A DNA stretch of 17,746 bases from Chloroflexota bacterium (GTDB lineage Bacteria > Chloroflexota > UBA5177 > JANWHV01): contig JAICHN010000052.1 in assembly GCA_025924845.1 (NCBI GenBank), forward strand, positions 1 through 17,746. The letters are read 5' to 3'. The notes below the pieces were generated by a model. That model was not told the origin of the DNA and made no database searches. It worked only from the letters and a program-made list of their open reading frames with translations. Below are positions 390 to 17,746 of the stretch, piece by piece. Position numbers and translations under genes: made by a program. Positions within the stretch are counted from its first letter, which is position 1. The number at the start of each line of letters is the position of its first letter.

Positions 390-401
390 CGAGGAGGAGC
401 C

Positions 402-2489: not shown

Positions 2490-2500
2490 GCGCCCAGCCC

Positions 2501-3610
2501 GTGACCCTGGGAAGGGCAGAAACCGCCCTCAACGGGATCTGTCCGTACTTCACCATGTTTCCACTCGCCTTTCCTTACGCGATTCTCAGTAAGCATGGCC
2601 GGACGGACGAGTGGGTGCTCGACCCTTTTTGTGGCCGCGGCACCACCAATTATGCCGGCCGTTTGCTGGGCATGCCGTCAATCGGGATCGACAGTAGTCC
2701 GGTGGCGTCCGCCATTGCTCAGGCCAAGCTGGCGAATACGAACCCCACGGCGATCATGCAGGCCGCACGGTGCATTCTGGCCGAAGCGCCCGAACCGACC
2801 GCCGTACCCGAGGGCGAGTTCTGGGAGTGGGCTTTCGCGCCGTCCGTGCTACACACCCTCTGTCGCCTGCGCGAGGGACTCCTGCGGAACTGTCGCTCGG
2901 ATGCCCGGGTTGCCATGCGCGCTATCCTGCTCGGCGCGCTCCATGGTCCGCGCCCCAAGCATCGGCCAAGTTACTTCTCCAACCAGGCACCTCGCACCTA
3001 TGCTCCCAAACCTCGGTATGCCGTGAACTTCTGGCGCGCGCGCGGCCTCATTCCAGAGCCGGTCGATGTGCCGGCGATCATCGAGGCGCGGGCGCTGCGT
3101 TACTATGGCCTGCCGGCCCGGCGGCACGAAGGCATGGTGCTGCGGGCGGATAGCAGGCTACCTGAAACCTTCGCGCGCTTAGGAAGGCCGAAGTCGTTGA
3201 GCTGGGTGATTACCTCGCCTCCCTATTACGGGATGCGTACCTATATTCCCGACCAATGGCTTCGGTCCTGGCTCCTCGGCGGTCTGGATTCAGTCGACTA
3301 TTCGATGGCAGGCCAGGTGACTCACGAGAGCCCCGAGTCCATGGCAGCGCAATTCAAACGTGTGTGGCGAAACGTGGGCACATGTGCCGCGTCAGGAGCG
3401 CGTATGATCGTTCGCTTCGGCGGCATCAATGATCGTAAAACCGATCCACAGGTGATCATCATCAACTCGCTGGCCGATACGGGTTGGGAGATTACTGCCA
3501 TCGAGTCGGCCGGGGCTGCGTCGGCGGGCCGTCGCCAGGCCGCGCATTTTGGGCGCGCGAAGCACACCGCCATTGATGAGTATGATATCTGGGCGCGCTG
3601 GGCAGGCTGA
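2501..3610 (+). CDS. DNA methyltransferase (N4-cytosine/N6-adenine type), SAM motif before TSPPY motif
   Basis: The 369-residue protein has the SAM-binding motif D41-P-F-C-G-R-G-T-T near the N terminus, followed by GIDSSPVA, and the catalytic motif T238-S-P-P-Y-Y-G in the second half. These are hallmarks of amino-methyltransferases of DNA that modify adenine N6 or cytosine N4. In the common beta-class N4 enzymes DPFxGSGTT comes after SPPY; here the order is reversed, as in alpha/gamma-type architectures. About 190 residues separate the two motifs and may hold target-recognition material. The start is uncertain: GTG at 2501 is the first usual start in the frame, 11 bp after the herA stop, with GGGGAGAGGAG about 16 nt upstream. 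Tight coupling to herA suggests the methylase marks host DNA in the same system. No classical restriction endonuclease gene is visible. Confidence 0.8.
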   Translation: MTLGRAETALNGICPYFTMFPLAFPYAILSKHGRTDEWVLDPFCGRGTTNYAGRLLGMPSIGIDSSPVASAIAQAKLANTNPTAIMQAARCILAEAPEPTAVPEGEFWEWAFAPSVLHTLCRLREGLLRNCRSDARVAMRAILLGALHGPRPKHRPSYFSNQAPRTYAPKPRYAVNFWRARGLIPEPVDVPAIIEARALRYYGLPARRHEGMVLRADSRLPETFARLGRPKSLSWVITSPPYYGMRTYIPDQWLRSWLLGGLDSVDYSMAGQVTHESPESMAAQFKRVWRNVGTCAASGARMIVRFGGINDRKTDPQVIIINSLADTGWEITAIESAGAASAGRRQAAHFGRAKHTAIDEYDIWARWAG

Positions 3611-3707
3611 ACAGCCATCACCGCCGAGCGGGTAGACTTGAGGCGAGAGCGCCGGCTTTGGCGTGCTCCGTACCAAGGATATGGCTATCGCCGAGAGGAT
3701 AGACGGC

Positions 3708-4826
3708 GTGAAGATTACCCGACTCGAAAGCCTTTTCGTGCAGCCGCGCTGGCATTTTCTGAAGATGCATACCGACGAGGGCATCATCGGCCTCGGTGAG
3801 CCTGTTGTGGAAGGGCGCGCCCGCACCGTCGCCGCCGCCGTGCGCGAACTCGGTGACTACTTGATCGGTCAGGACCCTCGGCGCATCGAGCACCACTGGC
3901 AAGTGATGTACCGCGGCGCCTTCTATCGGGGCGGCCCTGTCCTGGTCAGCGCGATTAGCGGGGTCGAGCAGGCCATGTGGGATATTCTCGGCAAGTCGCT
4001 CGGCGTTCCCGTTTACCAGTTGTTGGGCGGCCATGTCCGCGAGCGCATCCGCGTCTACGCCCATTGCGCGGTGACCAGTCCGGATGACGCGGCGGCGGTC
4101 GTCGCTCCGCTGGTCGAACAGGGCTTTACGGCGCTCAAGACCGGGGTTGATGCACCGGTGCGGATTGTAGACACCAAAGAGTACATCGACCGCCAGGTCA
4201 ATCGCATCACCGCCATTCGCGCCGCCCTCCCCGACCATGTAGACCTCGCAGTCGATTTCCACGGGCGGGTCAGTCCAGCCATGGCCATCCGGCTCGCGCA
4301 CGCGCTCGAGGACTTGCATCTGCTGTTCATCGAGGAACCGGTGCTGCCGGAGAATGTCGATGCCCTGGTCACGGTCGCCCGTTCGACCTCGATCCCTATC
4401 GCTACGGGCGAGCGCCTATTTACCCGCTGGGGTTTCCGCGAGGTTCTGGAGAAGGGCGCCGCCGTTGTCCTCCAGCCCGACCTCTGCCACGCGGGCGGGA
4501 TCGGCGAAGTGCGCAAGATCGCCGCCATGGCCGAGACCTACTTCGCCGCGGTCGCCCCGCACAATCCGCTCGGCCCCATCTCGCTTGCCGCCGGTCTTCA
4601 GGTGGATGCCTGCACCCCCAACTTCCTCTGTCAGGAGCAGGTCTCACTCGGCGTGGGCTACCTCAAGCAACCGTTCGTGGTGCGCGAGGGCTACATCGAC
4701 CTCCCCACCGGGCCGGGCCTGGGCATCGAACTGGACGACGAGGCGGTCGCCGGTCAACTCAACGACGGCAGTTGGCAAACGCCCATCCTCACTCATCCGG
4801 ACGATCATTCGTTCGCCGAGTGGTAG
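3708..4826 (+). CDS. dgoD: D-galactonate dehydratase (enolase superfamily)
   Basis: This enzyme dehydrates D-galactonate to 2-keto-3-deoxygalactonate in the DeLey-Doudoroff route of galactose use. The protein aligns with E. coli DgoD along nearly its whole length (shared segments EGRARTV, LGDYLIGQDP, FYRGGP, FHGRVS, FIEEPVL). I chose the GTG at 3708 because GAGAGGAT lies 7 nt upstream. With this start the metal ligands fall at D183, E209 and E235 and the catalytic pair at H185 and H285, the same numbers as in E. coli DgoD. An ATG at 3681 would add nine residues but has a poorly placed ribosome site. The length of 372 is close to the family's usual 380. No other dgo gene (aldolase, kinase, transporter) is beside it, so its pathway partners must lie elsewhere. 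A related sugar-acid substrate cannot be ruled out. Confidence 0.9.
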   Translation: MKITRLESLFVQPRWHFLKMHTDEGIIGLGEPVVEGRARTVAAAVRELGDYLIGQDPRRIEHHWQVMYRGAFYRGGPVLVSAISGVEQAMWDILGKSLGVPVYQLLGGHVRERIRVYAHCAVTSPDDAAAVVAPLVEQGFTALKTGVDAPVRIVDTKEYIDRQVNRITAIRAALPDHVDLAVDFHGRVSPAMAIRLAHALEDLHLLFIEEPVLPENVDALVTVARSTSIPIATGERLFTRWGFREVLEKGAAVVLQPDLCHAGGIGEVRKIAAMAETYFAAVAPHNPLGPISLAAGLQVDACTPNFLCQEQVSLGVGYLKQPFVVREGYIDLPTGPGLGIELDDEAVAGQLNDGSWQTPILTHPDDHSFAEW

Positions 4827-4856
4827 GGCAGGCATGCGCACCTAGCTCTTTACTAG

Positions 4857-4890
4857 CCTGCGAATGAATCCGTATGGCACGGGCGGGAGC
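4857..4890. repeat. Degenerate inverted copy of the 38-nt repeat
   Basis: Positions 4857-4869 (CCTGCGAATGAAT) are the exact reverse complement of 4995-5007 inside the second direct repeat. The CGGGCGGG nearby recalls the CCGCCCG tail of the repeats, though displaced. It looks like a decayed copy in the opposite orientation, placed just after dgoD. Confidence 0.5.
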
Positions 4891-4892
4891 AG

Positions 4893-4929
4893 ATGAATGC
4901 GCGCGTACCGGGGGCACGCGCGCATTCAT
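4893..4929. terminator. 14-bp perfect inverted repeat between convergent genes, possible bidirectional terminator
   Basis: The left arm ATGAATGCGCGCGT (4893-4906) and right arm ACGCGCGCATTCAT (4916-4929) pair perfectly around a 9-nt loop. The hairpin lies between the convergent ends of dgoD and gmd, where a two-way terminator is expected. No T-tract follows on either strand, so intrinsic termination is uncertain. It could instead be part of the surrounding repeat family. Confidence 0.5.
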
Positions 4930-4939
4930 GCGCCCGGTG

Positions 4940-5019
4940 ATCTTCCATGCGAATTCATCCGCAGGACCGCCCGAATCGACAATCCTCCACGCAAATTCAT
5001 TCGCAGGCCCGCCCGAATC
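4940..5019 (+). repeat. Two tandem 38-nt direct repeats, period 42
   Basis: Copy 1 is 4940-4977 and copy 2 is 4982-5019. They match at 33 of 38 positions, with a shared core AATTCAT-Y-CGCAGG-N-CCGCCCGAATC. The spacing between copies is 4 nt. No coding signal or ribosome site fits an expressed peptide here. The pattern is that of a short intergenic repeat family. Confidence 0.7.
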
Positions 5020-5027
5020 CAGGTTTC

Positions 5028-6985
<1,958 letters not shown>

Positions 6986-7341
6986 CGGGGCTCGTTCCCG
7001 ATCCCGGCGCGATCCTTCGTCCCATCCACGGCATTTCCCCATCGCTCTGGTTTGACCGCCGGAATGCTACCATATCGAGCCGCTTCCTCGTATAGGGGTT
7101 CTGCGGCAATGGCTGTTGTCTTGGGTGGTTGCGGAGTTATACGTAAAGGCGTATGTTTCCGTCCATATGGAACGTCGAGTACACGTTCCGTCTTCTCTTC
7201 TCGTTGTTTCATCAGCTTCACCCCGCTCGGAGGCGCATCGCGGAGTCCTCGCTGTAAACCAGCACCACTGGTTACTACAAATCTACCTACCAGAGGCGTC
7301 TACGACGGTCAGGCTGCTTATCGAAGCGTGGAGAGAGTGCG
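6986..7341. other. Divergent intergenic region between rmd and heliorhodopsin
   Basis: No credible gene was found in these 356 bases. Promoters for both flanking genes should lie here. A weak + strand candidate is TTGTCT, then 16 nt, then TATACG near 7120-7142. An inverted repeat GGAACGT-N7-ACGTTCC lies at 7169-7189. Neither is strong evidence by itself. Confidence 0.5.
7169..7189. promoter_or_regulatory. Inverted repeat upstream of heliorhodopsin, possible operator
   Basis: GGAACGT (7169-7175) and ACGTTCC (7183-7189) form a perfect 7-bp inverted repeat with a 7-nt spacer, about 150 bp upstream of the heliorhodopsin start. The size suits a dimeric regulator. No regulator family is recognised from the sequence. 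Confidence 0.3.
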
Positions 7342-8142
7342 ATGGCGACATCGTCCGATGTTGGAAGCCCTACGGAACGGGTCATTACCTATGGCGGTTT
7401 GCGCCGGCTTAACCTGAGCATGGCAGCGTTGCATCTGGTGCAAGGCCTGATCATCCTGTGGCTGGCCAATCGAGATTTCGTGCTGCCAATCAACGTGAGC
7501 TATTTGGATTTCAAGGAGGCCACGCAATCTCTGGTTCCGGCCAGTCGGACCCTGTTCGATGTCTCGCCGGCCTGGTTGGTTGCCGCGTTCCTTTTCATGT
7601 CGGCTATAGCCCACTTGGTGATTGCCACGGTCTGGCGGCGCGGCTACGAAAGTGACCTGGCTCGTGGTTTGAATCGGGCTCGGTGGTTCGAATACGCACT
7701 TTCAGCCGCCACAATGATGGTGGCCATTGCCCTGCTGGTAGGCGTGTACGACCTGGCAAGCCTTCTGATGATCTTCGCGCTGGTGTCCGTCATGAATCTC
7801 CTGGGACTGGTCATGGAGATCCACAACCAGACAACAGTTCACACTAAGTGGATAAGCTATATGGTGGGGTGCCTTGCGGGCATCGTCCCCTGGATCGTCG
7901 TGGCGATCTACTTCTGGGCGGCCAACGACTATGGGGGCGGGCAGATCCCGGGCTTTGTGTACGGGATCTATGTGAGTATTTTTTTCTTTTTCAACTGCTT
8001 TGCCATCAACATGTGGTTGCAGTATCGCCAAGTCGGCGCCTGGCACAGTTACCTGTACGGGGAACGGGCCTACATCGTTCTGAGCCTGGTTGCCAAGTCT
8101 GCCCTTGCGTGGCAGGTCTTTGCCGGAACGCTGCGGCCCTGA
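7342..8142 (+). CDS. Heliorhodopsin (retinal-binding seven-helix membrane protein)
   Basis: The 266-residue protein has seven hydrophobic helices (roughly 22-42, 77-98, 114-136, 138-160, 168-192, 205-228, 238-262). The last helix contains SLVAKSALAWQVFAGTLRP, with the retinal Schiff-base lysine at K252 and S248 four residues before it, as S237/K241 in heliorhodopsin 48C12. Helix 3 has R114-W-F-E117, matching R104/E107, where the Glu is the counterion. H31 and H91 match the pocket histidines H23/H80. PWIVVAIYF in helix 5 and FAINMWLQYRQVGAW in helix 6 to 7 are also family signatures. Heliorhodopsins are photosensory rather than known pumps and have an inverted topology; their role is poorly understood. 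The start has GGAGAGAG just upstream. It stands alone, with no carotenoid or retinal gene beside it; its convergent neighbour is a uspA-like pseudogene. Confidence 0.95.
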   Translation: MATSSDVGSPTERVITYGGLRRLNLSMAALHLVQGLIILWLANRDFVLPINVSYLDFKEATQSLVPASRTLFDVSPAWLVAAFLFMSAIAHLVIATVWRRGYESDLARGLNRARWFEYALSAATMMVAIALLVGVYDLASLLMIFALVSVMNLLGLVMEIHNQTTVHTKWISYMVGCLAGIVPWIVVAIYFWAANDYGGGQIPGFVYGIYVSIFFFFNCFAINMWLQYRQVGAWHSYLYGERAYIVLSLVAKSALAWQVFAGTLRP

Positions 8143-8189
8143 TGACTGCGGGACAACACAGCGAACGTGCGCGCATCCGCTGGTGGACA

Positions 8190-8646
8190 GCCATGTGCCG
8201 ACGAAGATGGAAACCGTGTGGGCTACATGCGCGGCATTTGGTCGGCCCAGCACTCGTCCCTTGGAAATAGTGACCCGACAACGATCCGCCCATGCTCCAG
8301 GTTGTCGCAAGCTGCGTCCAGGGATTCGCGGCACCGGAGTGCCCGGGCATCATCGCCGCCGTGCTCGTATCAATGTGCCCGTGCGGATCGGCGACGCCCC
8401 CGTGGGCCGAATGTGCTGATTGGCGAGCTATTCGCGCGCCGCGTCCGCCTCCGCGCGCAGGTAGTCATCGTAGAGGCTGTAGGGAGTATAGTTCTCCTGT
8501 TCGGTCGTTGCCATCACGGTGAGCGGCTCCACGGCCCGCACCAGGTGGAGGGTAGCACAGAACAATCGAGCGAGTCGCTCGGCGCCCGGAAGCACCCGCT
8601 CGGCCGGCGCGGAGCCGTCCAGATGTACCAGGATCTGCCGGAACAT
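8190..8646 (-). pseudogene. UspA-family universal stress protein, disrupted
   Basis: From the ATG at 8646 the - strand reads MFRQILVHLDGSAPAERVLP and then LFCATLHLVRAVEPL, a clear N-terminal UspA (nucleotide-binding stress protein) domain. The frame stops after DAARE with a TAG at 8428-8430, where relatives tend to have a Tyr codon. UspA-like pieces then continue in other frames: LANQHIRP in the same frame past the stop, GDDARA and CDNLEHGRIVVGS in a second, and RVLGRPNAAHVAHTVSIFV in a third, ending near 8190. Together these would make one domain of about 140-150 residues broken by a nonsense change and at least two frameshifts. It is read as a pseudogene. Sequencing errors could fake frameshifts, but three lesions make that unlikely. 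Confidence 0.7.
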
Positions 8647-8678
8647 CTCACTTACTCGTATCGGCGCCACGATAACGC

Positions 8679-8771
8679 CCGGGTGTTTCCAAGGCCACGA
8701 TCAGCAAGATCGAACGCGAGGAGGTGAGTCCAACCGCGATAATCCTGGTACGACTGGCCGGGGCATTGCGG
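8679..8771 (+). pseudogene. XRE-family helix-turn-helix fragment
   Basis: The + frame reads PGVSKATISKIEREEVSPTA and then IILVRLAGALRL. This matches the recognition helix and following helices of XRE/Cro-type regulators (consensus SGVSKATISKIERGEVSPTA). The expected first helices are missing upstream, where the UspA remnant begins only 33 bp away, and the downstream frame to 8957 shows no recognisable cupin or other domain. There is no good start. It appears to be a gene fragment left by deletion. Confidence 0.6.
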
Positions 8772-9023
8772 CTATATTGTCGTTCTGGCCAGGAGTTAGC
8801 TGCTATGCCTGAGATCGAAATCAAAGCCCTGAGCGACTCGCCGACAATCAGGCTGTCGTGCCCGCGGCGCATCAGCCGATTGAACCGCGCTCGGCTGGGC
8901 AGGGTGGGGAAGGAGTCCCACAGCCACTGCCGCTCATTTATCTCACGCCAAGCATAAACGTGTCAGGGTCAGCCGAATAGGTAAAGATCGGTCGGAAGGG
9001 CCAGGCTCGGCCGAGCGAATGCC
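8772..9023. other. Non-coding stretch after the XRE remnant
   Basis: The open frame that continues from the XRE fragment to a stop at 8955-8957 has no recognisable motif and unusual Arg/Ser-rich content. No promoter, RNA or repeat was recognised before the gntR stop. Confidence 0.4.
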
Positions 9024-9767
9024 CTAACGGGGCACTTCCAGGCGAAAGCGGTAGCGGTCGGCGCGGTAGATCGTGCGCCCAAAGATCGCGGGCACTTCCC
9101 CGTCATCGAGCCGGAGGTAGGTAGTCTGGCTGATCACGAGGGTGGGATCGCGCCGCGACTGCTGGAGCAGTTGCGCGTCGCCCGCCGTGGGAAGCGCCGC
9201 CTCCAGTTCCTGCGACCCGTGCGCGAGATGCAAGCCCAGGTTGGTTTCCATGAACTCATACAAGGAGTTGGCTTCGAGGTCGGCGTCGAGGATGCGCCGG
9301 AATAGCTGATAATTAAAATAGGCGGTCTCCAGAGCCATCGGCAGATCATCGGCCAGGCGCAGGCGTCGCATGTGGATCACGGCCTCGCGGATCCCCAGTT
9401 GCAGATGGTCGCTCACTTCCGGGGGGGCCGGGACCACGTCCCGCGCCAACAGCCTGGCCGAGGGCGTCATCCCCCGCACCCGCATGTCCTCGCTGAAGCC
9501 GCGCAAGCGACTGAGCTCGCGTTCGACCATGCTATGGGCCACGAACGTGCCGCGCCCACGTTCGCGCCGGAGCAGCCCCTCGCGCATCAGCCCTTCGAGC
9601 GCCTGGCGTACGGTCATGCGGGCGATCTCGAACTGGCGGCTAAGCGTCTGCTCCGACGGTATGGCCTGCCCCGGTTGCCAGGTGCCTGCCGCAATGTTCG
9701 CCCGGATCAGCACCTGGAGTTGCTGATACATAGGCACTTCGGTATGTTTGTCGAGGATGGACGCCAT
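9024..9767 (-). CDS. GntR-family transcriptional regulator, HutC/UTRA type
   Basis: The 247-residue protein has an N-terminal winged helix (residues about 8-78), with PMYQQLQVLIRANIAAG, then PGQAIPSEQTLSRQF and MTVRQALEGLMREGLL, followed by the RGRGTFVA wing. A UTRA effector domain follows (about 95-240: LSRLRGFSEDMRVRGM, DDLPMALETAYF, and near the end VPAIFGRTIYRADRYRF). HutC-type regulators sense small molecules, often amino-sugar phosphates in the NagR/DasR branch. The start has AGAGGAG 3 nt upstream. It is divergent from the MurNAc operon, and two GTCTAGAC sites that fit this subfamily lie between them. It is therefore the likely local repressor. The effector is inferred to be an amino-sugar phosphate. 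Confidence 0.9.
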   Translation of the reverse strand: MASILDKHTEVPMYQQLQVLIRANIAAGTWQPGQAIPSEQTLSRQFEIARMTVRQALEGLMREGLLRRERGRGTFVAHSMVERELSRLRGFSEDMRVRGMTPSARLLARDVVPAPPEVSDHLQLGIREAVIHMRRLRLADDLPMALETAYFNYQLFRRILDADLEANSLYEFMETNLGLHLAHGSQELEAALPTAGDAQLLQQSRRDPTLVISQTTYLRLDDGEVPAIFGRTIYRADRYRFRLEVPR

Positions 9768-9894
9768 TGCTCCTCTTCTCCATCAACTCAAGGCGCGGAC
9801 GATCAGGCAATGACGGCAAGAGCAAGGAGCATTGTACACCCTCCTCGGCGAAACGGCGGCAAGATCGCGGGACTACGAAGGGGACCGCACGGTC

Positions 9895-9902
9895 GTCTAG
9901 AC
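9895..9902. promoter_or_regulatory. HutC/NagR-type operator half 1, GTCTAGAC
   Basis: GTCTAGAC is a perfect palindrome matching the HutC-subfamily consensus GTMTAKAC and the core of the DasR/NagR site TGGTCTAGACCA. It lies 128 bp upstream of gntR and 59 bp upstream of the operon -35 box. Only two copies exist in the whole window, both in this region. Confidence 0.7.
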
Positions 9903-9960
9903 ATTAGCGGTTCCGCCGGCTCGATCGTACTCAGGTGCCTCCGTGCTGTCAAGGGTGCGA

Positions 9961-9989
9961 TTGACAACCCCCTAACCCGATGCTATACT
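9961..9989 (+). promoter_or_regulatory. Strong sigma-70-type promoter of the amino-sugar operon
   Basis: TTGACA (9961-9966) and TATACT (9984-9989) are separated by exactly 17 nt, with a TG at 9981-9982 giving an extended -10 box. Transcription should start near 9996. It points towards the acetyltransferase-ABC-namZ/murQ operon. Confidence 0.8.
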
Positions 9990-10007
9990 TCGTCCATTCT
10001 TGAGGCT

Positions 10008-10015
10008 GTCTAGAC
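10008..10015. promoter_or_regulatory. HutC/NagR-type operator 2, GTCTAGAC, just after the transcription start
   Basis: This second GTCTAGAC copy lies about 12 nt downstream of the predicted transcription start, a classic place for a repressor. Its flanks (CT before, CGG after) differ from those of the first copy, so the shared palindrome itself stands out. The divergent GntR protein is the natural ligand. Confidence 0.75.
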
Positions 10016-10170
10016 CGGTTACTGCTAGAATGCAACCTGATCGGGTTGGCATGGCGGGGCAGCGAAGTTATCCGCGTGGATTTGCTGACTTACGGAGAGC
10101 GCTAAGCGATTGCCCAGTCACGCCGGCCGAAGTTTGCCGCGTACTTGGCAAGGAGAACCGAGGGGGGACG

Positions 10171-11142
10171 ATGGCGAGTTTTTCGGTTCGAGGATACCGG
10201 CCGGGCGACGAGGCACCCGTGGTCGCGCTGTGGAATCGCTGTCTTCCGGCCGACCCCATTACCGCCGAGCGGTTCGCGGCTCAGGTGCTGCTTGATGTGA
10301 ATTTCGATGCCGGGGGCTTCCTGGTGGCCGAGCAGGAAGGGGCGATCGTCGGCTTTCTGCTTGCCCTCACCCGGCAAACACCCATGCAAGGGCTGGATAA
10401 CGATCCGGAGGATGGCTGGATTAGCGTCTTTTTCGTCGATCCGGCGTTTCGTAAGCAGGGAATCGGCCAGGCGTTGCTCGACCGGGGCCGGGCGCACGTC
10501 GCGGATCGGGGCCGCCGCTGGGTGAGCGTCTCTCCCTACGCGCCCAACTATTTCTGGCCGGGGGTGGATGCCGACCTCTACCCCGATGCATTGCGCTTTC
10601 TGCGCAAGAATCACTTTGAAACGATCGAGACACCCGTGTCCATGACCGCGAGCCTGCTTGGGTTCAGCATTCCCGACAGCGTACGGGACTTGCGGCGCCG
10701 CCGCGAAGACGAGGGTTATGCCTTCGGCACCCTGCGTGACGACCAGATCACGGGCGTGCTGGAGTTCAACAGCCGCCATTTCTCGGCCGACTGGGCCAGG
10801 GCGATCCGGGAAGGGCTCCTGCGCGGCGTGCCGCGTGAGCGGGTGCTGGTCGCGTCACGCGGCTCGGCGATCGTCGGTTTCTGCCTGTATGGCGGCTACG
10901 ACAGGGTGGCCGAGCGCTTCGGCCCCTTCGGAGTTCATCCCGATTTGCGTCGTGTCGGATTGGGCAGGATTCTTTTGTATCTCTGCCTGGATCGCATGCA
11001 CGCGAACGGCCTGCAAAGTGCCTGGTTTCTCTGGACCGGCCTTGATGACCCTGCCGGCCACCTGTATACCAGCGCCGGCTTCCACGTGGCGCGCTCGTTT
11101 ACCGTGCTACGCGCGGACGCGGCCTCCGGCGAGAGGAGGTGA
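10171..11142 (+). CDS. Tandem-GNAT N-acetyltransferase
   Basis: The 323-residue protein contains two GNAT (acetyl-CoA-dependent acetyltransferase) domains. The first has the acetyl-CoA motif R94-K-Q-G-I-G99 after ISVFFVDPAF; the second has R260-R-V-G-L-G265 after RFGPFGVHPDL. Conserved blocks PNYFWPGVDADLYPDA and AWFLWTGLDDPAGHLYTSAGF place both in one family of double-GNAT proteins. I chose the ATG at 10171, with GAGGGGGG a few bases upstream and the usual family start (FSVRGYRPGDEAPVVALW). The gene is first in the operon. The substrate is unknown; with a deacetylase and a MurNAc pathway nearby, an amino sugar or muropeptide amine is a reasonable inference. MshD (mycothiol synthase) is also a tandem GNAT, but its signatures are not seen. 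Confidence 0.85.
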   Translation: MASFSVRGYRPGDEAPVVALWNRCLPADPITAERFAAQVLLDVNFDAGGFLVAEQEGAIVGFLLALTRQTPMQGLDNDPEDGWISVFFVDPAFRKQGIGQALLDRGRAHVADRGRRWVSVSPYAPNYFWPGVDADLYPDALRFLRKNHFETIETPVSMTASLLGFSIPDSVRDLRRRREDEGYAFGTLRDDQITGVLEFNSRHFSADWARAIREGLLRGVPRERVLVASRGSAIVGFCLYGGYDRVAERFGPFGVHPDLRRVGLGRILLYLCLDRMHANGLQSAWFLWTGLDDPAGHLYTSAGFHVARSFTVLRADAASGERR

Positions 11143-11214
11143 GGGCGCGCAAAACAGACACCTGATCATCTCCCGCTCGGCATGTTTATCATTTTAGATC
11201 AAGGAGACTGCGCA

Positions 11215-12516
11215 ATGCTTATTCGCCGGAGCCTGGCCGCGGTTACTCTCTTATCGCTGGCCGCGGCGACGTTGGGGAGCACCGCCCATTCCCGTGTGGC
11301 GGCGGCCGCTCAGACCACGGTGACCTACTGGACGCACGTCAACGCGCCCGCCCAAAAGGTTGAGAAAAAGCTGATCAGCCAATTCGAGGCCAAGAATCCC
11401 AGCATCAAGATCAACTATGTGGTGGTCGACTTCAACAGCCTGCCCACCAAGCTCACCACGGCCCTGGCCGGCGGCGCCGGACCGGATATCTTCAACTATT
11501 TCCGCTCTTTCGCTCCCGCTCTGGTGCAGCGTAACCTGATCGCACCCGTGGACTTCAAGGCGTTCGGAGTGGCCGATCAGAAGGCGTTCACCAGCCGTTA
11601 CGTACCCTCGGTGATCGGCGGCTACACCTTCGGCAACACGATTTATGGGGTGCCGCACGAGGTATCAAACTTCGCCTTCTGGGTAAACGGCGCTCAGTTC
11701 AAGGCCGCCGGGCTGGATCCGGTCAAGGATTTTCCCAAGACCTGGGCGGACGTGGTGCGTCTGGGCAAAAAACTGACCATCACCAAGAACGGCAAGGTGG
11801 TTCAGGAAGGCATATCGCTGCCGCTCTACAACGTGGTCCGCGACACGCTCACCCTCGATTCCATGGCCCGTCAGGCGGGTGGTGGGCTATTCAGCGAGGA
11901 CGGCAAGAAGGCAATGTTGAATAGTCCGTCCGCCATCAAGGCGCTCCAGACCTGGGCGGACATGGTACATGTCTCCAAGATCAACGATCCTGCCCTCGGT
12001 CCCACCGCCTCGACGGACAACACCAACCTTTTCGGCGACGGCACCGCGTCCATGACCAACGTGGGCGGCTCCTGGCTGACCAGCATCCTCCAGCAAACCT
12101 ATCCCAAGGTGTACAAAGCCTACAACGTGGGGCCGGAACCGCGCTTCAACACGAAGCTGAAGATCGGCTCTGATATCTACGGCTTCGGTTTGTTCGTGAC
12201 CAAGGCGTCCAAGAATCAGGCGGCAGCCTGGCAATTCGCCCGCTTCCTGGTCGATCACGGCAATGACTACTTTTCAGGCGCGGGCATCTGGTTGGGCGAT
12301 AAGGCCCCCTTGAACCCGAAGTTGACCGCGACCCTGAAGAAATGGAACGTCTTCGAGAGCACCTTCTCCGAAGGTTCCTTCCTGCCCCCCGTGACCAACT
12401 ATAATCAGCTCGCCAATATCATCGAACGGGCGATTGAGCGCTCCGTCTTGAACGGTCAGAGCGCCAAATCCTCCCTCGATCAGGCGCAGCAGGAAGCCCA
12501 GCCGCTCATGCAGTAA
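11215..12516 (+). CDS. Sugar ABC transporter substrate-binding protein
   Basis: This 433-residue protein belongs to the family-1 extracellular sugar-binding proteins: TVTYWTHVNAP after the signal, GGAGPDIFNYFRSFAP, and a C-terminal half with GSDIYGFGLFVTKASKNQAAAWQFARFLV. A Sec signal peptide covers residues 1-32 (two Arg, hydrophobic core, AAAA before QTT). There is no Cys and hence no lipobox, so it is not a lipoprotein, which is unusual for a monoderm binding protein. I prefer the ATG at 11215, with AAGGAG 7 nt upstream, over an ATG at 11182. It should capture the saccharide imported by the next two permeases. From context the ligand is a MurNAc-containing sugar or muropeptide, but the sequence does not show this directly. 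Confidence 0.92.
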   Translation: MLIRRSLAAVTLLSLAAATLGSTAHSRVAAAAQTTVTYWTHVNAPAQKVEKKLISQFEAKNPSIKINYVVVDFNSLPTKLTTALAGGAGPDIFNYFRSFAPALVQRNLIAPVDFKAFGVADQKAFTSRYVPSVIGGYTFGNTIYGVPHEVSNFAFWVNGAQFKAAGLDPVKDFPKTWADVVRLGKKLTITKNGKVVQEGISLPLYNVVRDTLTLDSMARQAGGGLFSEDGKKAMLNSPSAIKALQTWADMVHVSKINDPALGPTASTDNTNLFGDGTASMTNVGGSWLTSILQQTYPKVYKAYNVGPEPRFNTKLKIGSDIYGFGLFVTKASKNQAAAWQFARFLVDHGNDYFSGAGIWLGDKAPLNPKLTATLKKWNVFESTFSEGSFLPPVTNYNQLANIIERAIERSVLNGQSAKSSLDQAQQEAQPLMQ

Positions 12517-12539
12517 GGTGGCGGGCCGCGTGGCGGAAT

Positions 12540-12574
12540 GGAGCGGTCTCTCTCTCACCTTGGGAGGCCGCTCC
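12540..12574 (+). promoter_or_regulatory. Intercistronic hairpin between binding protein and first permease
   Basis: GGAGCGGTC (12540-12548) pairs with GGCCGCTCC (12566-12574), 9 bp with one T-G wobble and a 17-nt loop, followed by a pyrimidine-rich run. Such stem-loops after binding-protein genes protect the upstream mRNA or partly stop transcription, giving more binding protein than permease. It also argues against starting the permease at the ATG at 12538. Confidence 0.55.
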
Positions 12575-12627
12575 TTCCCCTTCTTCGCGGTGTTTGGTCT
12601 GGGGCGCGAGGCGCGAAAGGGGTCGGC

Positions 12628-13521
12628 GTGGTAGGGATGCAGGGTATACGACGAAGAGGCAGGGGATTATCCCTGGCCCAACGGCGTTCGTTGTTTGGCC
12701 TGTTGTTCGTCCTGCCCGGTATCGTGCCGCTGCTGATCTTCGTCATCTATCCCATAGGAAGTGCTCTCTACCTCAGCTTTACCAATTGGGAACTCCTCGG
12801 CTCACCCCAGTGGCAAGGAGTGCAAAATTACACCGAGTTGAGTTCGGATCTGCAGTTCCGCTCGGCGCTGACCGTCACCCTGGAGTTCGCCCTCGGCACC
12901 GCCGTGCCGTCTTGCCTACTCGCCGTCGGCATTGCCCTGCTGTTCAACGCCGGCGTCCGCTACACCGCCTGGTACCAGCCGCTGCTCTTTTTGCCGGCGG
13001 TGCTGCCGGTGGTGGTGACCAGTCTCGTATGGGGTGTCCTCTACCAGGGCAACGGCGTGATCAACAACGTCTTCGGGCTGAACATCGGCTGGCTGACCGA
13101 CCAGAGTTGGGCGCTGCCCGCCCTGATGATCATGACGGTGTGGACCAACCTGGGCTACTACGCGGTGATCCTCCTTGCCGGCATTCGAGAGATTCCCCAC
13201 GACTACTACGAAGCCGGCAGGCTCGACGGCGCGGGGACGGCGGCGTTGATCTGGCATATCACCCTGCCCCTGGTCCGGCCCGCCTTATTGTTCGTGGTGG
13301 TAATCGCCACCTCGAACGCGCTGACCCTGTTCATCCAACCGTACCTGTTGACCCAGGGTGGTCCGGGCGATGCCACCAGAACGCTCTCCGAATTGATCTA
13401 CGACACGGCGTTCAGCTTTCTGGAGATCGGCAGGGCGTCGGCCATGTCGTTCATCTTGCTGCTGATTTCACTCGTGGTGGCCGCGGTCCAGTTCAGTGTC
13501 TTGCGCTCGGGAGATAGCTGA
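12628..13521 (+). CDS. Sugar ABC transporter permease, MalF/UgpA type
   Basis: The protein (297 residues from this start) is an integral membrane permease. A first helix LLFVLPGIVPLLIFVIYPIG is followed by a periplasmic loop and about five more helices. The ATPase-contacting EAA motif is E195-A-G-R-L-D-G-A-G203, followed by a WHITLPLVRPA segment. The start is uncertain: the GTG at 12628 has AAAGGGG at a suitable distance, while ATG 12637 and ATG 12538 are in the same frame. ATG 12538 would place the stem-loop inside the coding region. It pairs with the next gene to form the channel. No ATP-binding subunit is encoded here, so a shared MsmK/UgpC-like ATPase is expected elsewhere. Confidence 0.9.
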   Translation: MVGMQGIRRRGRGLSLAQRRSLFGLLFVLPGIVPLLIFVIYPIGSALYLSFTNWELLGSPQWQGVQNYTELSSDLQFRSALTVTLEFALGTAVPSCLLAVGIALLFNAGVRYTAWYQPLLFLPAVLPVVVTSLVWGVLYQGNGVINNVFGLNIGWLTDQSWALPALMIMTVWTNLGYYAVILLAGIREIPHDYYEAGRLDGAGTAALIWHITLPLVRPALLFVVVIATSNALTLFIQPYLLTQGGPGDATRTLSELIYDTAFSFLEIGRASAMSFILLLISLVVAAVQFSVLRSGDS

Positions 13522-13522
13522 G

Positions 13523-14368
13523 ATGAGTGCTCCGGAGACGGGCCGGCGGCCGGGCGTGGCGCGATCTATCCTGGTCCATGTCGCGCTTGCGATAGCGGGA
13601 ATCATCGTGGGCATCCCTCTCTACTGGACGGTGATTTCATCGCTCACCACCAACGCGGCGATTTTCGCCACGCCCGTGCAATGGATTCCCCCTTCGCTCC
13701 ATCCGGAGAATTTCTCGCAGGCTCTCTCCTCGGCCCCATTTGGGCGATACTTCTTCAACAGCACCGTCGTCGGTCTGGCGGTTACGCTCACCACGCTGGT
13801 CAGTTCGGCGTTCGCGGGCTACGGATTCGCCAAGTTCCGCTTTCCGGGGCGGCGTATCCTCTTCGTGGTGGTGCTAATCGCGCTCATGGTGCCGTTTCAG
13901 GCGATCATGATTCCCCTGTTCGTACTTGCCCGTCAGCTGGGATGGCTCAATTCCTATGCCGGCCTGATCGTCCCCGGCGCCGTGAGCGGTTTCGGTATCT
14001 TCCTGATGCGCCAGTTCATGAGTAAGCTGCCAGATGCCCTCCTGGAAGCGGCCCGATTGGATGGCTGCAATGAATTCATGGTCTTCCTGAAGGTTGCCCT
14101 GCCGCTGTCCCGTTCGGCCCTGTCAGCCCTGGCCGTGCTCACCTTTCTCGCCAGTTGGAACAACTTCCTCTGGCCGCTGATCGTAGCGCAGAGTGCCGAT
14201 GTCTTCACCGTCCCTCTGGGCATCGTGCAGTTCCGCGGCTCGTATTCCACCAACTACATTCAGATCCTTGCCGTGGCCCTGGTGGCGGCGGCTCCGGTGG
14301 TCGTGTTGTACCTGGCCATGCAGCGACAGATTATCTCGACGTTCGCCTCCAGCGGTATAAAGGGTTAG
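13523..14368 (+). CDS. Sugar ABC transporter permease, MalG/UgpE type
   Basis: This 281-residue permease has an N-terminal helix (IAGIIVGIPLYWTVISSL) and about five further helices. The cytoplasmic EAA motif is E175-A-A-R-L-D-G-C-N183, followed by FLKVALPLSRSAL. ATG 13523 begins 1 nt after the previous stop, so the two permeases are translationally coupled; GGGAGA lies upstream. An earlier in-frame ATG (13496) overlaps the previous gene and is less likely. It completes the membrane part of the importer, and the C terminus FASSGIKG is typical for MalG-like proteins. Confidence 0.92.
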   Translation: MSAPETGRRPGVARSILVHVALAIAGIIVGIPLYWTVISSLTTNAAIFATPVQWIPPSLHPENFSQALSSAPFGRYFFNSTVVGLAVTLTTLVSSAFAGYGFAKFRFPGRRILFVVVLIALMVPFQAIMIPLFVLARQLGWLNSYAGLIVPGAVSGFGIFLMRQFMSKLPDALLEAARLDGCNEFMVFLKVALPLSRSALSALAVLTFLASWNNFLWPLIVAQSADVFTVPLGIVQFRGSYSTNYIQILAVALVAAAPVVVLYLAMQRQIISTFASSGIKG

Positions 14369-14424
14369 AGAACGGCACGCCGGCTCCGTCCGCGCGCCAT
14401 GAATGAGGAAAGGAGATTCCGCTC

Positions 14425-15126
14425 ATGCCAACCGTTGAACGGGTCCTGGCTATCGGCGGTCATGCCGCCGATATGGAATTCAGCGCGGGCGCCGCTATCG
14501 CGAAGTACACGGCGGCGGGCGCCCACGCCGTTTTGTTGCACTGTACGGCGGGCGAGATGGGACACCCTCGCCTGTCCGGTGAGGAGTACGCGAAGCAGAA
14601 GATCGAAGAGGCGCATCGAGCCGCGAAGGTTCTGGGCGGCGAGGCACGGTTCCTGCCCTATCCGGACGCGGGCCTGCCGCGGAATGACGAGGTTGCCTAT
14701 GCCATTGTCGACGTCATTCGCGAGGTTCGGCCCGATGTGGTGATCACTCATTGGCGCGGGAGTTTCCACTCCGACCACAACAACACGCACTACAATACCC
14801 TGCAAGCCCTGTTCTACGCCGCGCTGCCTTCGATCAAGCGTACCCATCCCGCCTTTACGCCCTCCCACCTTTTCTTCGCCGAGAACTGGGAGGACATGGA
14901 TGATTACCTTCCCGATATCTATCTGGACACCACCGATGTCTACGATCGCTGGGTCGAGGCCGCCTCCCAGTACGAACTGTTTAGCGGATCAGTTTCCGGC
15001 TTCCGCTACCGTGATTACTATGAATCACTGGCCGTGATGCGTGGCTGCCTGGCCAACTTCAAGCGGGCCGTGACGTTGATGCGTCCGCCCGAGGCGCGGA
15101 TCAGCTACTGGAAGGATTTGCCGTAG
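14425..15126 (+). CDS. PIG-L family deacetylase (LmbE-like) with variant HAAD metal motif
   Basis: PIG-L/LmbE proteins are zinc-dependent de-N-acetylases of sugars such as GlcNAc-inositol (MshB) or chitobiose. The first motif here is G11-G-H13-A-A-D16-M-E, where MshB has H13-P-D15-D16. The metal ligands His and Asp stay, but the position of the catalytic base Asp15 is Ala. The second motif is F114-H115-S-D117-H118, with N-N-T-H following, which supplies the third ligand. The fold is otherwise intact: strands VLAIGG and AVLLHCTAGEMGHP, then PDVVITHWRGSFHSDH. Length is 233 residues. AAAGGAG precedes the ATG. It touches the next gene (TAG followed directly by ATG), so both are coupled. It may deacetylate an amino sugar, use another base, or have changed its role. 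Confidence 0.88.
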   Translation: MPTVERVLAIGGHAADMEFSAGAAIAKYTAAGAHAVLLHCTAGEMGHPRLSGEEYAKQKIEEAHRAAKVLGGEARFLPYPDAGLPRNDEVAYAIVDVIREVRPDVVITHWRGSFHSDHNNTHYNTLQALFYAALPSIKRTHPAFTPSHLFFAENWEDMDDYLPDIYLDTTDVYDRWVEAASQYELFSGSVSGFRYRDYYESLAVMRGCLANFKRAVTLMRPPEARISYWKDLP

Positions 15127-17208
15127 ATGCAGCGCGGGCATCCAGCGGTGGTACCGGGTTGCGACGTCTTCATGGAGGAGGCCGCCGTCGAACTGCAAGG
15201 CCGGCCCTTGGCCGTGCTCGCCGGTTCCGGCGCGGTCACCGCTCGCCTGATCCCCATCGTTACGGCGCTGCGATCGCGCCGGGATCTGAACATCGTGGCC
15301 CTCTTCGGCGCGGAACATGGCCTGCGGGGCGCCGAGCCTGCCGGCAAGGCCGTCGACTCCACGGGCCGTTCCGGCCCGGATCTACCAGTGTACAGTCTCT
15401 ATGGCGAGCATCGGGAGCCTACCGACGAGATGCTGCAGGGCGTCGACACCATGGTGATCGACTTCCAGGATGTCGGTCTGCGCTGGTACACCTATGCCTC
15501 GACTATAAGGGCCGTGCTCAAGGCCGCGGCACGGCGCAATCTACCGGTGATTCTGCTCGATCGGCCCAACCCGTTGGGCGGGATGCTTCTCGATGGTCCG
15601 GTCACGGATCCCGCCTTCCTCAGCTTTGTCGGCGCGGCCCAGGTGCCGATTCGCCATGGCCTGACCCTTGGTGAACTGGCCTGCTGGATGAACGATCACG
15701 AAGGGATCGGGGCACCGTTGCGGGTGATCCCGATGCGGGGCTGGCGGCGCGAGTTCTGGTTCGACGCCACCGGTCTGGCCTGGGTAGCGCCCTCGCCGAA
15801 CCTCCCTACCGATGATACCTGCCTGCCTTATGCCGCAACCTGCTTGATCGAGGGCACGCCGGTGTCGGAAGGGCGAGGCACCGCGCAGCCCTTCAAAGTC
15901 CTGGGCGCGCCCTGGATCGATGGGGAGCAGCTTGCCGCTCAGCTCAACCGGCTCGATCTGCCGGGGGTGCGTTTTGGCCCTACCTGGTTTCGTCCGTCCA
16001 TGAGTAAGTACGCGGAGCAGATCTGCGGTGGAGTCCAACTGCATATCGAGGATAGGTATGCCTTTGCCGGGGCGCGCATCGGGCTGCATCTCCTGGCGAC
16101 GCTCCGCGCGCTGTATCCGGAGCACATGGCGTGGATTCGCGATGACTCCGGTGCTTATGTAGTTGACCTCTTGCTCGGCAGCGATGCCCCACGCCAGGCC
16201 ATCGAGCAGGGCGACCGGGTAGACGACATGGTGACCTCCTGGCAGGCCGACCTGAAGCGATTCGACGAAGAGCGCCGCGACGTTCTCCTCTACGCCGATC
16301 CCACGGCTCACCACCTGGCATCGGGCAGTGCTTTATCGCAAACGGAACGGGTGAACGCGCGCACGGCTGATATTGATACGTTGAGCGCGCTGGAGATTCT
16401 GCGCCTGATCAGCGAGGAGGACGCGACGGTTCCCGCCGCCGTGGCGCGCGAACTGCCGGCCATCGCCGCCTGTGTGGAGCGTGTGGCTCATGCCCTGCGG
16501 AACGGGGGCCGCCTCATCTATGCCGGCGCCGGATCGAGCGGCAGGATGGGTGTTCTGGACGCGGCGGAGTGCTACCCCACCTATGGGGTCGATTCGTCCC
16601 AGGTGTTGGCGCTGCTTGCCGGCGGCCCCGCCGCCATGACCAATTCGGTCGAGGCCGCCGAGGATAACACGACGCGCGGCGGCGAGGACGTGGATGCGCT
16701 GGGCGTGAATGAGCAAGACGTGGTGGTGGGGATTGCCGCCAGCGGCCATACGCCGTACGTGGTGGGCGTGCTTCGCCGCGCCCGAGAGCGCGGCGCCTAC
16801 GCCGTCGCCCTGGTCGGCAACGGCGCCGGATCGGTGGCAAGCGCCGCGGATCTGGTGATCGCGCCGGCGACCGGTCCCGAGGTCATCGCGGGGTCGACTC
16901 GGATGAAGGCGGGCACCGCGCAAAAACTGGTGCTCAATATGATCTCCACCACTGCCATGATCCTGACCGGCCGGACCTTTGGCAACCTCATGGTCAATAT
17001 GCGGGCGGTCAACGACAAACTTCGCGAACGGATGCGGCGAATAGTCGCGGAAGCGGCCCAGGTAAGCCTGGAGGTAGCGGAGGCAGCGCTTGCCGCGTCT
17101 GATCATGACATGAAGACCGCCATTGTGATGCTGCTCTCCGGGGTGGATGCCGCCGAGGCACGACAGCGGCTGGAGCGCGCGTCCGGCGTGGTGCGCGACG
17201 CCGTGTGA
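15127..17208 (+). CDS. Fusion of exo-N-acetylmuramidase NamZ (DUF1343) and MurNAc-6-phosphate etherase MurQ
   Basis: One 693-residue chain joins two peptidoglycan-salvage enzymes. Residues 1 to about 391 match NamZ (GH171, B. subtilis YbbC), which removes MurNAc from non-reducing ends: E63-H-G within LFGAEHGLRG, D112-FQDVGLRWYTY, L143-L-D-R-P-N-P, P222-S-P-N-L-P-T, and E242-G-T-P-V-S-E-G-R-G-T. Residues 403-693 match E. coli MurQ, which splits the lactyl ether of MurNAc-6-phosphate to GlcNAc-6-phosphate and lactate: GAGSSGRMGVLDAAE481, VEAAE512, GSTRMKAGTAQK. E481 and E512 correspond to E83 and E114 of E. coli MurQ. The two parts adjoin with almost no linker. There is no signal peptide, unlike secreted YbbC, so both activities are probably cytoplasmic. 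In B. subtilis ybbC and murQ are neighbouring separate genes, which supports a functional link. The start follows the PIG-L stop directly. No MurNAc kinase is seen nearby. Confidence 0.95.
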   Translation: MQRGHPAVVPGCDVFMEEAAVELQGRPLAVLAGSGAVTARLIPIVTALRSRRDLNIVALFGAEHGLRGAEPAGKAVDSTGRSGPDLPVYSLYGEHREPTDEMLQGVDTMVIDFQDVGLRWYTYASTIRAVLKAAARRNLPVILLDRPNPLGGMLLDGPVTDPAFLSFVGAAQVPIRHGLTLGELACWMNDHEGIGAPLRVIPMRGWRREFWFDATGLAWVAPSPNLPTDDTCLPYAATCLIEGTPVSEGRGTAQPFKVLGAPWIDGEQLAAQLNRLDLPGVRFGPTWFRPSMSKYAEQICGGVQLHIEDRYAFAGARIGLHLLATLRALYPEHMAWIRDDSGAYVVDLLLGSDAPRQAIEQGDRVDDMVTSWQADLKRFDEERRDVLLYADPTAHHLASGSALSQTERVNARTADIDTLSALEILRLISEEDATVPAAVARELPAIAACVERVAHALRNGGRLIYAGAGSSGRMGVLDAAECYPTYGVDSSQVLALLAGGPAAMTNSVEAAEDNTTRGGEDVDALGVNEQDVVVGIAASGHTPYVVGVLRRARERGAYAVALVGNGAGSVASAADLVIAPATGPEVIAGSTRMKAGTAQKLVLNMISTTAMILTGRTFGNLMVNMRAVNDKLRERMRRIVAEAAQVSLEVAEAALAASDHDMKTAIVMLLSGVDAAEARQRLERASGVVRDAV

Positions 17209-17251
17209 GGCTCCAGGGTACCGCGAGGGAAGGCTTGCCGTTCTCCGCCTT

Positions 17252-17289
17252 ATCGGCCTCCCGACCGCTTGGCGTGCCGGGAGGCCGAT
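17252..17289 (+). terminator. Terminator-like hairpin after the amino-sugar operon
   Basis: ATCGGCCTCCCG (17252-17263) and CGGGAGGCCGAT (17278-17289) form a perfect 12-bp stem with a 14-nt loop, 43 bp after the fusion gene's stop. There is no clear T-tract. Its place and strength make it the best candidate for the end of the operon. Confidence 0.6.
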
Positions 17290-17304
17290 GAAGTAGCATG
17301 CGGC

Positions 17305-17445
17305 GCTAGCCTGGATTATGCATGACGATAGGAACCCTGGGAGCGCGCCCATCTTGGGCGTCCCCGTTCGCCCGGAATCCTACGGGGACGGGCGAGACGC
17401 CCGCGCTCCCGGGAACAGGGCTACCCATGAATAATCCAGGCTAGC
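17305..17445. repeat. 141-bp nested inverted-repeat element (MITE/REP-like)
   Basis: The ends GCTAGCCTGGATTAT (17305-17319) and ATAATCCAGGCTAGC (17431-17445) are perfect inverted repeats; adding CATG inside each end extends the match to about 20 bp with one mismatch. Inside are further pairs: GGGAGCGCG with CGCGCTCCC, GGGCGTC with GACGCCC, and CGTCCCCGT with ACGGGGACG. The whole can fold into one long branched cruciform. No coding sequence and no clear target-site duplication were seen. It looks like a mobile or dispersed palindromic element. Confidence 0.7.
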
Positions 17446-17746
17446 TGAGCAGATAACCTATGATCTGCCCGAGCTGGTTAGAAGCGTCGATGGTGATCGG
17501 GCTGCTCAGTGTTGTAGTCGGCGGTACCTGCAATCCAAAGCAATTCGAGCCTCCCGCCGACCAGGGCGGTGTCGCGGTCGTGTAGGCACGCTTGCCTCCT
17601 ACGAAGCCGGTATCCCACAGCCAACCCGGCGGTAGCGTCCCTGTACTTGCGCCCGTCCAGGGCGTCCCAAGCCACTCCAGATCGTAGATTTGGTTGGTTG
17701 GGGTGTAACTAGTATTTATCGACAGGCTGAAGACGACAGCGCCGCT
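17441..17746 (-). CDS. Unidentified protein, C-terminal 101 residues (start outside window)
   Basis: On the - strand, reading in from the window's right edge, 101 codons run without a stop to a TAG at 17441-17443. The peptide begins SGAVVFSLSINTSYTPTNQIY and ends QLGQIIGYLLS. It is poor in charge and rich in Thr, Gly, Pro, Ser and Trp (LEWLGTPW, PPGWLWDTGF, TTATPPWSAGG), a composition common in secreted or surface proteins, possibly ending in a beta-rich domain. No family is recognised. The last codons and the stop lie within the right arm of the 141-bp inverted-repeat element. It converges with the fusion gene. Confidence 0.55.
   Translation of the reverse strand, partial: SGAVVFSLSINTSYTPTNQIYDLEWLGTPWTGASTGTLPPGWLWDTGFVGGKRAYTTATPPWSAGGSNCFGLQVPPTTTLSSPITIDASNQLGQIIGYLLS

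Follow-up and report, generated by a model that had tools for sequence, protein, structure and literature searches.

The window analysed here is a 17,746-nucleotide stretch of DNA from a Chloroflexota bacterium (GenBank assembly GCA_025924845.1, contig JAICHN010000052.1, positions 1 to 17,746 of the forward strand). On its plus strand, genes for a two-domain GNAT N-acetyltransferase, an ATP-binding cassette (ABC) sugar-binding protein, two permeases, and a PIG-L deacetylase are followed, in that order, by a single gene that joins a NamZ-type exo-muramidase (DUF1343) to MurQ, the etherase of N-acetylmuramic acid (MurNAc) 6-phosphate. The features are listed in Table 1, in which the coordinates of permease 1 are those of the longest frame, the real start of which may lie further in. 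Judged from its sequence, we consider this gene to encode a real, recurrent, and leaderless NamZ-MurQ fusion within an ABC sugar operon, and probably a variant of the known salvage of cell-wall sugars.

Table 1. Features of the NamZ-MurQ fusion gene and of the operon around it (positions in the window)
Feature	Position	Strand	Evidence
NamZ-MurQ fusion gene	15127..17208	+	Single 693-residue open frame, 0 internal stops
Ribosome-site-like GGAAGGA (15110-15116) and in-frame TAG (15124-15126)	15110..15126	+	Fix the start of the fusion
NamZ_N (PF07075), residues 29-229	15211..15813	+	Pfam, 237.3 bits, cut-off 26.9
NamZ_C (PF20732), residues 235-389	15829..16293	+	Pfam, 173.5 bits, cut-off 25
Linker, residues 390-403	16294..16335	+	AlphaFold2 predicted local distance difference test (pLDDT) <50 at 395-402; Pfam/NCBIfam domain limits
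MurQ half, residues 404-693, with E481 and E512	16336..17205	+	NCBIfam and further domain/structure matches
PIG-L (LmbE-like) N-deacetylase	14425..15126	+	PF02585, 98.8 bits; end abuts fusion ATG
ABC sugar permease 2	13496..14368	+	PF00528; best NCBIfam model UgpE, below its cut-off
ABC sugar permease 1	12538..13521	+	PF00528; best NCBIfam model UgpA, below its cut-off
ABC sugar-binding protein, leader-like N terminus	11182..12516	+	PF01547
Two-domain GNAT N-acetyltransferase	10165..11142	+	PF00583; longest frame begins at 10000
GntR/UTRA regulator	9024..9767	-	PF00392, PF07702; divergent from operon

A first-pass annotation, made from the sequence alone, had described complete NamZ and MurQ domains in one frame, and this description was borne out. 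Both NamZ profiles of Pfam were covered nearly end to end and above their cut-offs, and the protein passed the NCBIfam MurQ equivalog TIGR00274 (residues 406-692, 342.5 bits against a curated cut-off of 302). The motifs EHG (residues 63-65) and DRPNP (145-149) and the glutamates E481 and E512 lie exactly where that annotation had placed them, and no mismatch was found at the 50 conserved positions of the fusion that were examined. The protein (P0001) retains all 41 NamZ columns in which at least 95% of 255 sequences share one residue, including E63, H64, D112, D115, R119, D145, R146, E183, E242, and R250. E481 and E512, which we take to be the catalytic glutamates of MurQ, were invariant in 19 of 19 aligned fusions. 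AlphaFold2 modelled two confident domains (mean pLDDT 93.5, predicted template modelling score (pTM) 0.63), and the best Foldseek matches in the PDB were 4k05, a DUF1343 structure, and the MurQ structures 4s12 and 4lzj. Because of the low pLDDT in the linker and the pTM of 0.63, the two domains look tethered rather than docked in this model. Pfam returned no match in the fusion to DUF871, the domain of the MupG type.

The start of the gene and its joint were also secure. The GGAAGGA lies ten bases ahead of the ATG, which is abutted by the in-frame TAG stop codon of the PIG-L gene; the PIG-L gene and the fusion thus occupy one frame (14425-17208) with a single TAG between them. As an in-frame TAG directly precedes the ATG, a longer upstream start is impossible, and a missed start with a signal peptide, which the first-pass annotation had raised as a concern, was ruled out. 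A second concern, a stop or frameshift at the joint, was likewise dismissed: the frame is open throughout, and a frameshift or assembly artefact is excluded because nine further full-length relatives (62-87% identity) carry the same fusion. The GC contents at the three codon positions were similar across the gene (0.71/0.48/0.77 in one half and 0.72/0.51/0.80 in the other). The absence of a signal peptide reported earlier agrees with our scan: by Kyte-Doolittle hydropathy, a heuristic and not a signal-peptide predictor, the first residues contain no leader-like stretch. The 15-residue peak of the fusion was 1.65 at residues 28-42, within the NamZ domain, compared with 1.97 at residues 18-32, in a leader-like context, for the binding protein of the operon. 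A secretion signal like that of Bacillus subtilis NamZ was not found in the fusion; this feature does not define the NamZ family.

The operon proteins gave the following matches. The GNAT matched chains 5kga/5kf1 (328 residues), presumably the glucosaminide acetyltransferase GlmA of Clostridium acetobutylicum, over query residues 17-293 of 325 (E-value ~1e-11). The closest solved structure to the PIG-L protein was a BshB1-type deacetylase, followed by an LmbE-related protein, 4-oxalmesaconate hydratase, and diacetylchitobiose deacetylases. Among the 16 window proteins scanned, Pfam recognised no transporter ATPase, sugar kinase, NagZ, or phosphotransferase system (PTS); in particular, there was no PTS transporter of the B. 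subtilis MurP type, the ABC importer being found instead. The window stops 538 bases past the fusion.

To place the fusion among its relatives, we sorted by domain 258 different proteins from three protein searches, a list that holds the top of each search and is not a survey. The earlier suggestion that uncharacterised fusions of this kind might lie in databases proved correct: the list contained 27 proteins in the NamZ-MurQ order, including P0015, P0075, and probably P0198, which are N-terminally cut, and P0123, with a partial MurQ, and six proteins in the reverse order, confirmed by Pfam (P0030, P0031, P0161, P0162, P0163, and P0176). P0191, one of the fusions, has a public entry that names it a MurNAc-6-phosphate etherase and assigns it to a Bacillota metagenome-assembled genome (MAG), so such fusions exist unremarked in databases. 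Counting fragments, there were 33 fused proteins, and in 32 of them the first domain match starts at or before residue 17; the exception is P0122. Joining to MurQ was not restricted to NamZ. In 19 listed proteins (within P0188-P0258), MurQ is followed by a BadF-type kinase; the two of these with an organism name are both from actinobacteria (Monashia and Microbacterium). A NagZ-type GH3-MurQ protein (P0228) and a MurQ-serine hydrolase protein (P0248) occurred once each, and GNAT was joined to MurQ as MurQ-GNAT (P0214) or GNAT-MurQ (P0224 and P0240). Given these partners (BadF-type kinase, GH3, GNAT, and serine hydrolase), MurQ appears to act as a fusion hub for the pathway. Further MurQ fusion loci were noted alongside (L030 and L031).

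The named NamZ relatives among the listed matches included proteins from Chloroflexota and Thermomicrobiales, and also from Pseudoxanthomonas, Firmicutes, and one archaeon. No plasmid record carried most of the fusion, the best plasmid match being the MurQ of Thermomicrobium roseum (54%), and no relative of the fusion was found on viral contigs. The matches listed from 398 genomes that share the phylum of G003, a Bacillota MAG, included no fusion, and the best of them (484 bits) covered NamZ alone. A clade-B query (clade defined below) returned no fusion at E 1e-100 from 149 genomes of the phylum of genome G002, a set that overlaps the 398 genomes and held no known positive, so that this result is uninformative. 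At E 1e-110, 297 genomes belonging to the same phylum as a Granulicella genome gave no fusion; the lone match there, in genome G575, was a serine hydrolase-NamZ gene with a separate murQ next to it. At this locus (L102, 1-4618), murQ follows in the same frame after one TGA and is itself followed by a PIG-L gene; by eye, both the serine hydrolase-NamZ and PIG-L proteins have leader-like N termini. With no fusion among the matches from these sets, the NamZ-MurQ fusion looks rare in those genome groups. We recognised no description of a NamZ-MurQ fusion among the papers listed by literature searches, some of which gave only the best 20 of 161, 35, or 23 papers; the founding NamZ papers lay outside this coverage, and the result is no proof of novelty.

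We also analysed the origins of the fusion. Clade A, formed by relatives of the window's protein (62-87% identical), and clade B, a distant set (36-42% where measured), were separate in both the NamZ and the MurQ tree. However, trees holding A and B together were not rejected by the approximately unbiased (AU) test (p-AU 0.132 for MurQ and 0.127 for NamZ), so two origins are not proven, and these trees suggest that the NamZ-MurQ order may have arisen once or twice. The reverse order is most simply explained as a separate event; P0030 and P0031, the only ones of the six reverse-order proteins placed in the trees (the other four were left out), stand apart in both. Four unfused NamZ proteins (P0011-P0014, 394-402 residues) sit among the clade A fusions in the NamZ tree and end at the fusion joint. 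A single clade of the fused clade A proteins was rejected (p-AU 4e-52), so joining or splitting happened several times, and the ends of P0011-P0014 would fit repeated splitting or joining of neighbouring genes.

The first-pass annotation held that the fusion moves exo-muramidase action into the cytoplasm, and this claim was not supported by the unfused proteins. The listed single-domain NamZ proteins, 134 in all, are the nearest relatives and do not sample the whole family; in 105 of them, at most 20 residues precede the domain, too few for a leader. Similarly, at 55 NamZ loci from the phylum of the Bacillota MAG, to which several genomes contributed two loci, 37 NamZ proteins had no leader and 18 possibly had one. 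Because most of the single-domain relatives are already leaderless, the fusion is not the cause of an internal NamZ and, judged from these N termini, would not be what brought NamZ inside the cell. Unfused leaderless NamZ and MurQ also share ABC operons. At L053, L054, and L055, the order is MurQ, sugar-binding protein, permease, permease, NamZ; at L028, it is sugar-binding protein, permease, permease, MurQ, a polysaccharide-deacetylase-like gene (by eye), NamZ, GNAT, PIG-L. At L059, where no MurQ was found, the order is sugar-binding protein, permease, permease, PIG-L, GNAT, NamZ, NagZ, BadF kinase. Parts of the gene set occur at L038 and L045, the complete set round NamZ at few loci only, and neighbouring or overlapping murQ and namZ genes at L025 and L026. 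Near NamZ, the 55 loci had a sugar-binding protein in 19 cases (with both permeases in 17), MurQ in 20, NagZ in 24, a serine hydrolase in 23, BadF in 8, PIG-L in 5, and GNAT in 4. As a control, 20 regions of 17 kb taken from these genomes contained two binding proteins, one permease, and no MurQ, NagZ, PIG-L, GNAT, or BadF gene. The comparison indicates that these genes do gather round NamZ.

The loci differ in how they were chosen: L026-L040 were mostly selected for having NamZ and MurQ on one contig, whereas the 40 loci L042-L081 follow match ranking. The BadF kinase was near 8 of 37 leaderless and 0 of 18 possibly leader-bearing NamZ proteins at the 55 loci, and near 3 of 24 and 0 of 16, respectively, at the 40 rank-order loci. 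Its link with leaderless NamZ is only suggestive, because five of the eight loci had been chosen for carrying NamZ and MurQ on a single contig. On the T. roseum megaplasmid, murQ adjoins a BadF kinase gene, and anmK, nagA, and ABC genes are close by; no NamZ was found on this record. There (L013 and L015), murQ, the BadF kinase, a hexosaminidase, anmK, a serine hydrolase, nagA, a SIS protein, and an ABC importer lie together. A further cluster (L014), on a plasmid of Halorussus vallis (NZ_CP100002.1, 190003-205232), contains GNAT, anmK, a peptidoglycan-recognition-type protein, a serine hydrolase, a leaderless NamZ, and nagZ, and is a peptidoglycan salvage set on a haloarchaeal plasmid; its host presumably has no peptidoglycan of its own.

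Based on these sequence features, we propose, with a probability of about 0.6, that the fusion is a cytoplasmic two-enzyme protein that salvages a peptidoglycan sugar, fed by the ABC importer and served by a kinase encoded elsewhere. The operon's importer would take up small MurNAc-containing saccharides, such as MurNAc linked to N-acetylglucosamine (GlcNAc), and the NamZ half would cut off the non-reducing-end MurNAc inside the cell. A kinase from another gene would phosphorylate the free MurNAc, and the flexibly tethered MurQ half would then remove the lactyl group to give GlcNAc-6-phosphate, while the GNAT and PIG-L proteins would probably modify the N-acetyl groups of these sugars. This proposal is supported by the single frame, the intact domains and conserved residues, the N terminus without a leader-like stretch, the operon-like placing, the recurrence of the fusion in both orders, and the ABC operons elsewhere in which these genes occur unfused; from these observations we infer the substrate, its uptake, the kinase step, and both enzyme activities. 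The earlier idea that imported MurNAc saccharides are cut in the cytoplasm therefore survives in part: import of the intact saccharide with cutting inside is the best reading because there is no leader, MurQ is cytoplasmic, and the operon has ABC genes, but the fusion is not what relocated NamZ. That account also omits a kinase step. Characterised NamZ releases unphosphorylated MurNAc from the non-reducing end, and the substrate of MurQ is MurNAc-6-phosphate. Because ABC import leaves the sugar unphosphorylated, a kinase step is needed, either ahead of both joined reactions or between them, and the kinase was placed elsewhere because none was recognised among the scanned window proteins. Phosphorylation of free MurNAc between the two halves is favoured, because PMC10465942 describes the C. 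acetobutylicum kinase MurK as specific for MurNAc and GlcNAc, and no charge change that would suggest a new phosphate site was seen in the fused NamZ across 255 sequences.

Several observations weigh against this proposal. No MurNAc kinase was recognised among the 16 window proteins, so the pathway cannot be closed, and the cargo of the importer is unproven because the binding protein matches general sugar binders, none of which names a wall sugar. The occurrence of a deacetylase together with an acetyltransferase in the operon has no explanation. If NamZ frees MurNAc, the NamZ and MurQ steps are not consecutive, so that channelling is not expected, and the pTM of 0.63 yields no sign of a domain interface. 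The neighbourhood data stem from organisms other than the window's host, and PIG-L and GNAT were near NamZ in only a minority of the loci (5/55 and 4/55). Furthermore, at the 40 rank-order loci (24 leaderless and 16 leader-bearing NamZ proteins), the full ABC set accompanied 9 of the leaderless and 6 of the leader-bearing ones, and MurQ accompanied 3 and 5, respectively; therefore, neither neighbour is tied to leaderless NamZ.

The two joined steps would become consecutive if phosphorylation came first, with a cytosolic kinase acting on the imported disaccharide, the NamZ half serving as a 6-phospho-N-acetylmuramidase, and MurNAc-6-phosphate passing directly to the MurQ half. There is a precedent in Staphylococcus aureus, in which MupG, a DUF871 protein, is a cytoplasmic enzyme that cleaves MurNAc-6P-GlcNAc, and its gene shares a putative operon with murQ (PMC6262408); such a NamZ would be a second, unrelated solution to the MupG step, in an ABC-fed pathway. 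We nevertheless consider this order of events unlikely, since a PTS is missing from the operon, the kinase MurK has the specificity for MurNAc and GlcNAc described above (PMC10465942), and no alignment column had K, R, or H in at least 80% of 32 fused and at most 35% of 45 leader-bearing NamZ proteins. The single strongly differing column was 179 (Leu in the fused and Met in the leader-bearing proteins), and across the 255 sequences no special phosphate pocket was seen in the fused NamZ by sequence. It is also conceivable, although rather improbable, that the fusion is without mechanistic significance, a stop codon between adjacent genes having been lost and the halves working as they do when separate. 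At L025 and L026, murQ and namZ are neighbours or overlap, fused and split forms alternate within the window's clade, and the ABC and MurQ neighbours at the rank-order loci are not specific; against this, both orders recur and MurQ has four other kinds of partner, which is more than one accident. This explanation is compatible with cytoplasmic salvage by the fusion and not its opposite.

Two other explanations were given very little weight. GKRP and MurR share the MurQ fold, and the MurQ half could in principle be a sensor or regulator of the NamZ half and not an etherase; the Pfam and PDB matches did include GKRP SIS domains, with MurR weaker. This role is very unlikely in view of the MurQ equivalog cut-off that was passed, the near full-length alignment to MurQ structures at 45-50% identity, and the retention in all 19 aligned fusions of both presumed catalytic glutamates. 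We regard as equally far-fetched an exit of the leaderless fusion from the cell, with NamZ acting outside as in B. subtilis, which breaks down muropeptides outside the cell (PMC5061867): MurQ would be idle there, the fusion has no leader, and the first domain match starts within the first 17 residues in all but one of the fused proteins.

What is new here is the joining of NamZ and MurQ and the operon that surrounds it, both enzyme families being already known, and the main surprises were the two fusion orders and the breadth of MurQ partners. Fusion in both orders, with the kinase, GH3, GNAT, and serine hydrolase partners of MurQ, constitutes genetic evidence for a leaderless NamZ working with MurQ inside the cell. 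A testable gene set can be named (sugar-binding protein, two permeases, PIG-L, GNAT, NamZ, NagZ, kinase, and MurQ), and the question is raised of whether the sugar is phosphorylated before or after the NamZ cut.

Other features of the window were also noted. A perfect 12-base hairpin (17252-17289) is located 3' of the fusion, and a 141-base segment (17305-17445) between 20-base inverted repeats that are 95% complementary, which encloses a further inverted repeat, resembles a small mobile or repeat element. A heliorhodopsin gene (7342-8142; PF18761, 317 bits) precedes the GntR regulator gene by ∼0.9 kb on the other strand. A galactonate dehydratase (3663-4826; NCBIfam, 503 bits against a cut-off of 311) belongs to a separate sugar-acid pathway, and positions 402-3610 encode a protein with a HerA-type helicase domain and, after it, a DNA methylase-like protein.

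Finally, we compared the fusion with known systems. An architecture of an S12 serine hydrolase joined to DUF1343 was already listed in print in 2008 (PMC2605481). Like our fusion, it joins NamZ to another wall enzyme; it differs in lacking MurQ, and the G575 example has a leader-like start with separate murQ and PIG-L genes beside it. The MurQ-BadF kinase proteins likewise fuse MurQ to another step of the same pathway, but the partner is a kinase and MurQ comes first. The NagZ-MurK-GlmA system of C. acetobutylicum, in which we know of no NamZ-MurQ fusion, includes a glucosaminide GNAT, and the GNAT of the window matches 5kga/5kf1. It is also similar in that muropeptide cleavage does not take place outside the cell (PMC4974736) and in having a MurNAc/GlcNAc kinase (PMC10465942). 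The MupG-MurQ-MurP system of S. aureus shares the idea of a cytoplasmic muramidase, in a putative operon with murQ, that acts on imported MurNAc-GlcNAc (PMC6262408), whereas MupG is a DUF871 protein with a 6-phosphate substrate, a separate gene, and PTS uptake. In B. subtilis, the salvage cluster murQ-murR-murP-amiE-nagZ-ybbC, in which YbbC is NamZ, brings the same two enzyme families together in one gene cluster (PMC5061867); there, the genes are separate, uptake is by the MurP PTS, and muropeptide cleavage is extracellular, whereas the window has one leaderless protein and ABC uptake genes. Our results suggest that, in addition to the secreted, PTS-based route of B. subtilis, there is an ABC-fed exo-muramidase salvage in the cytoplasm.

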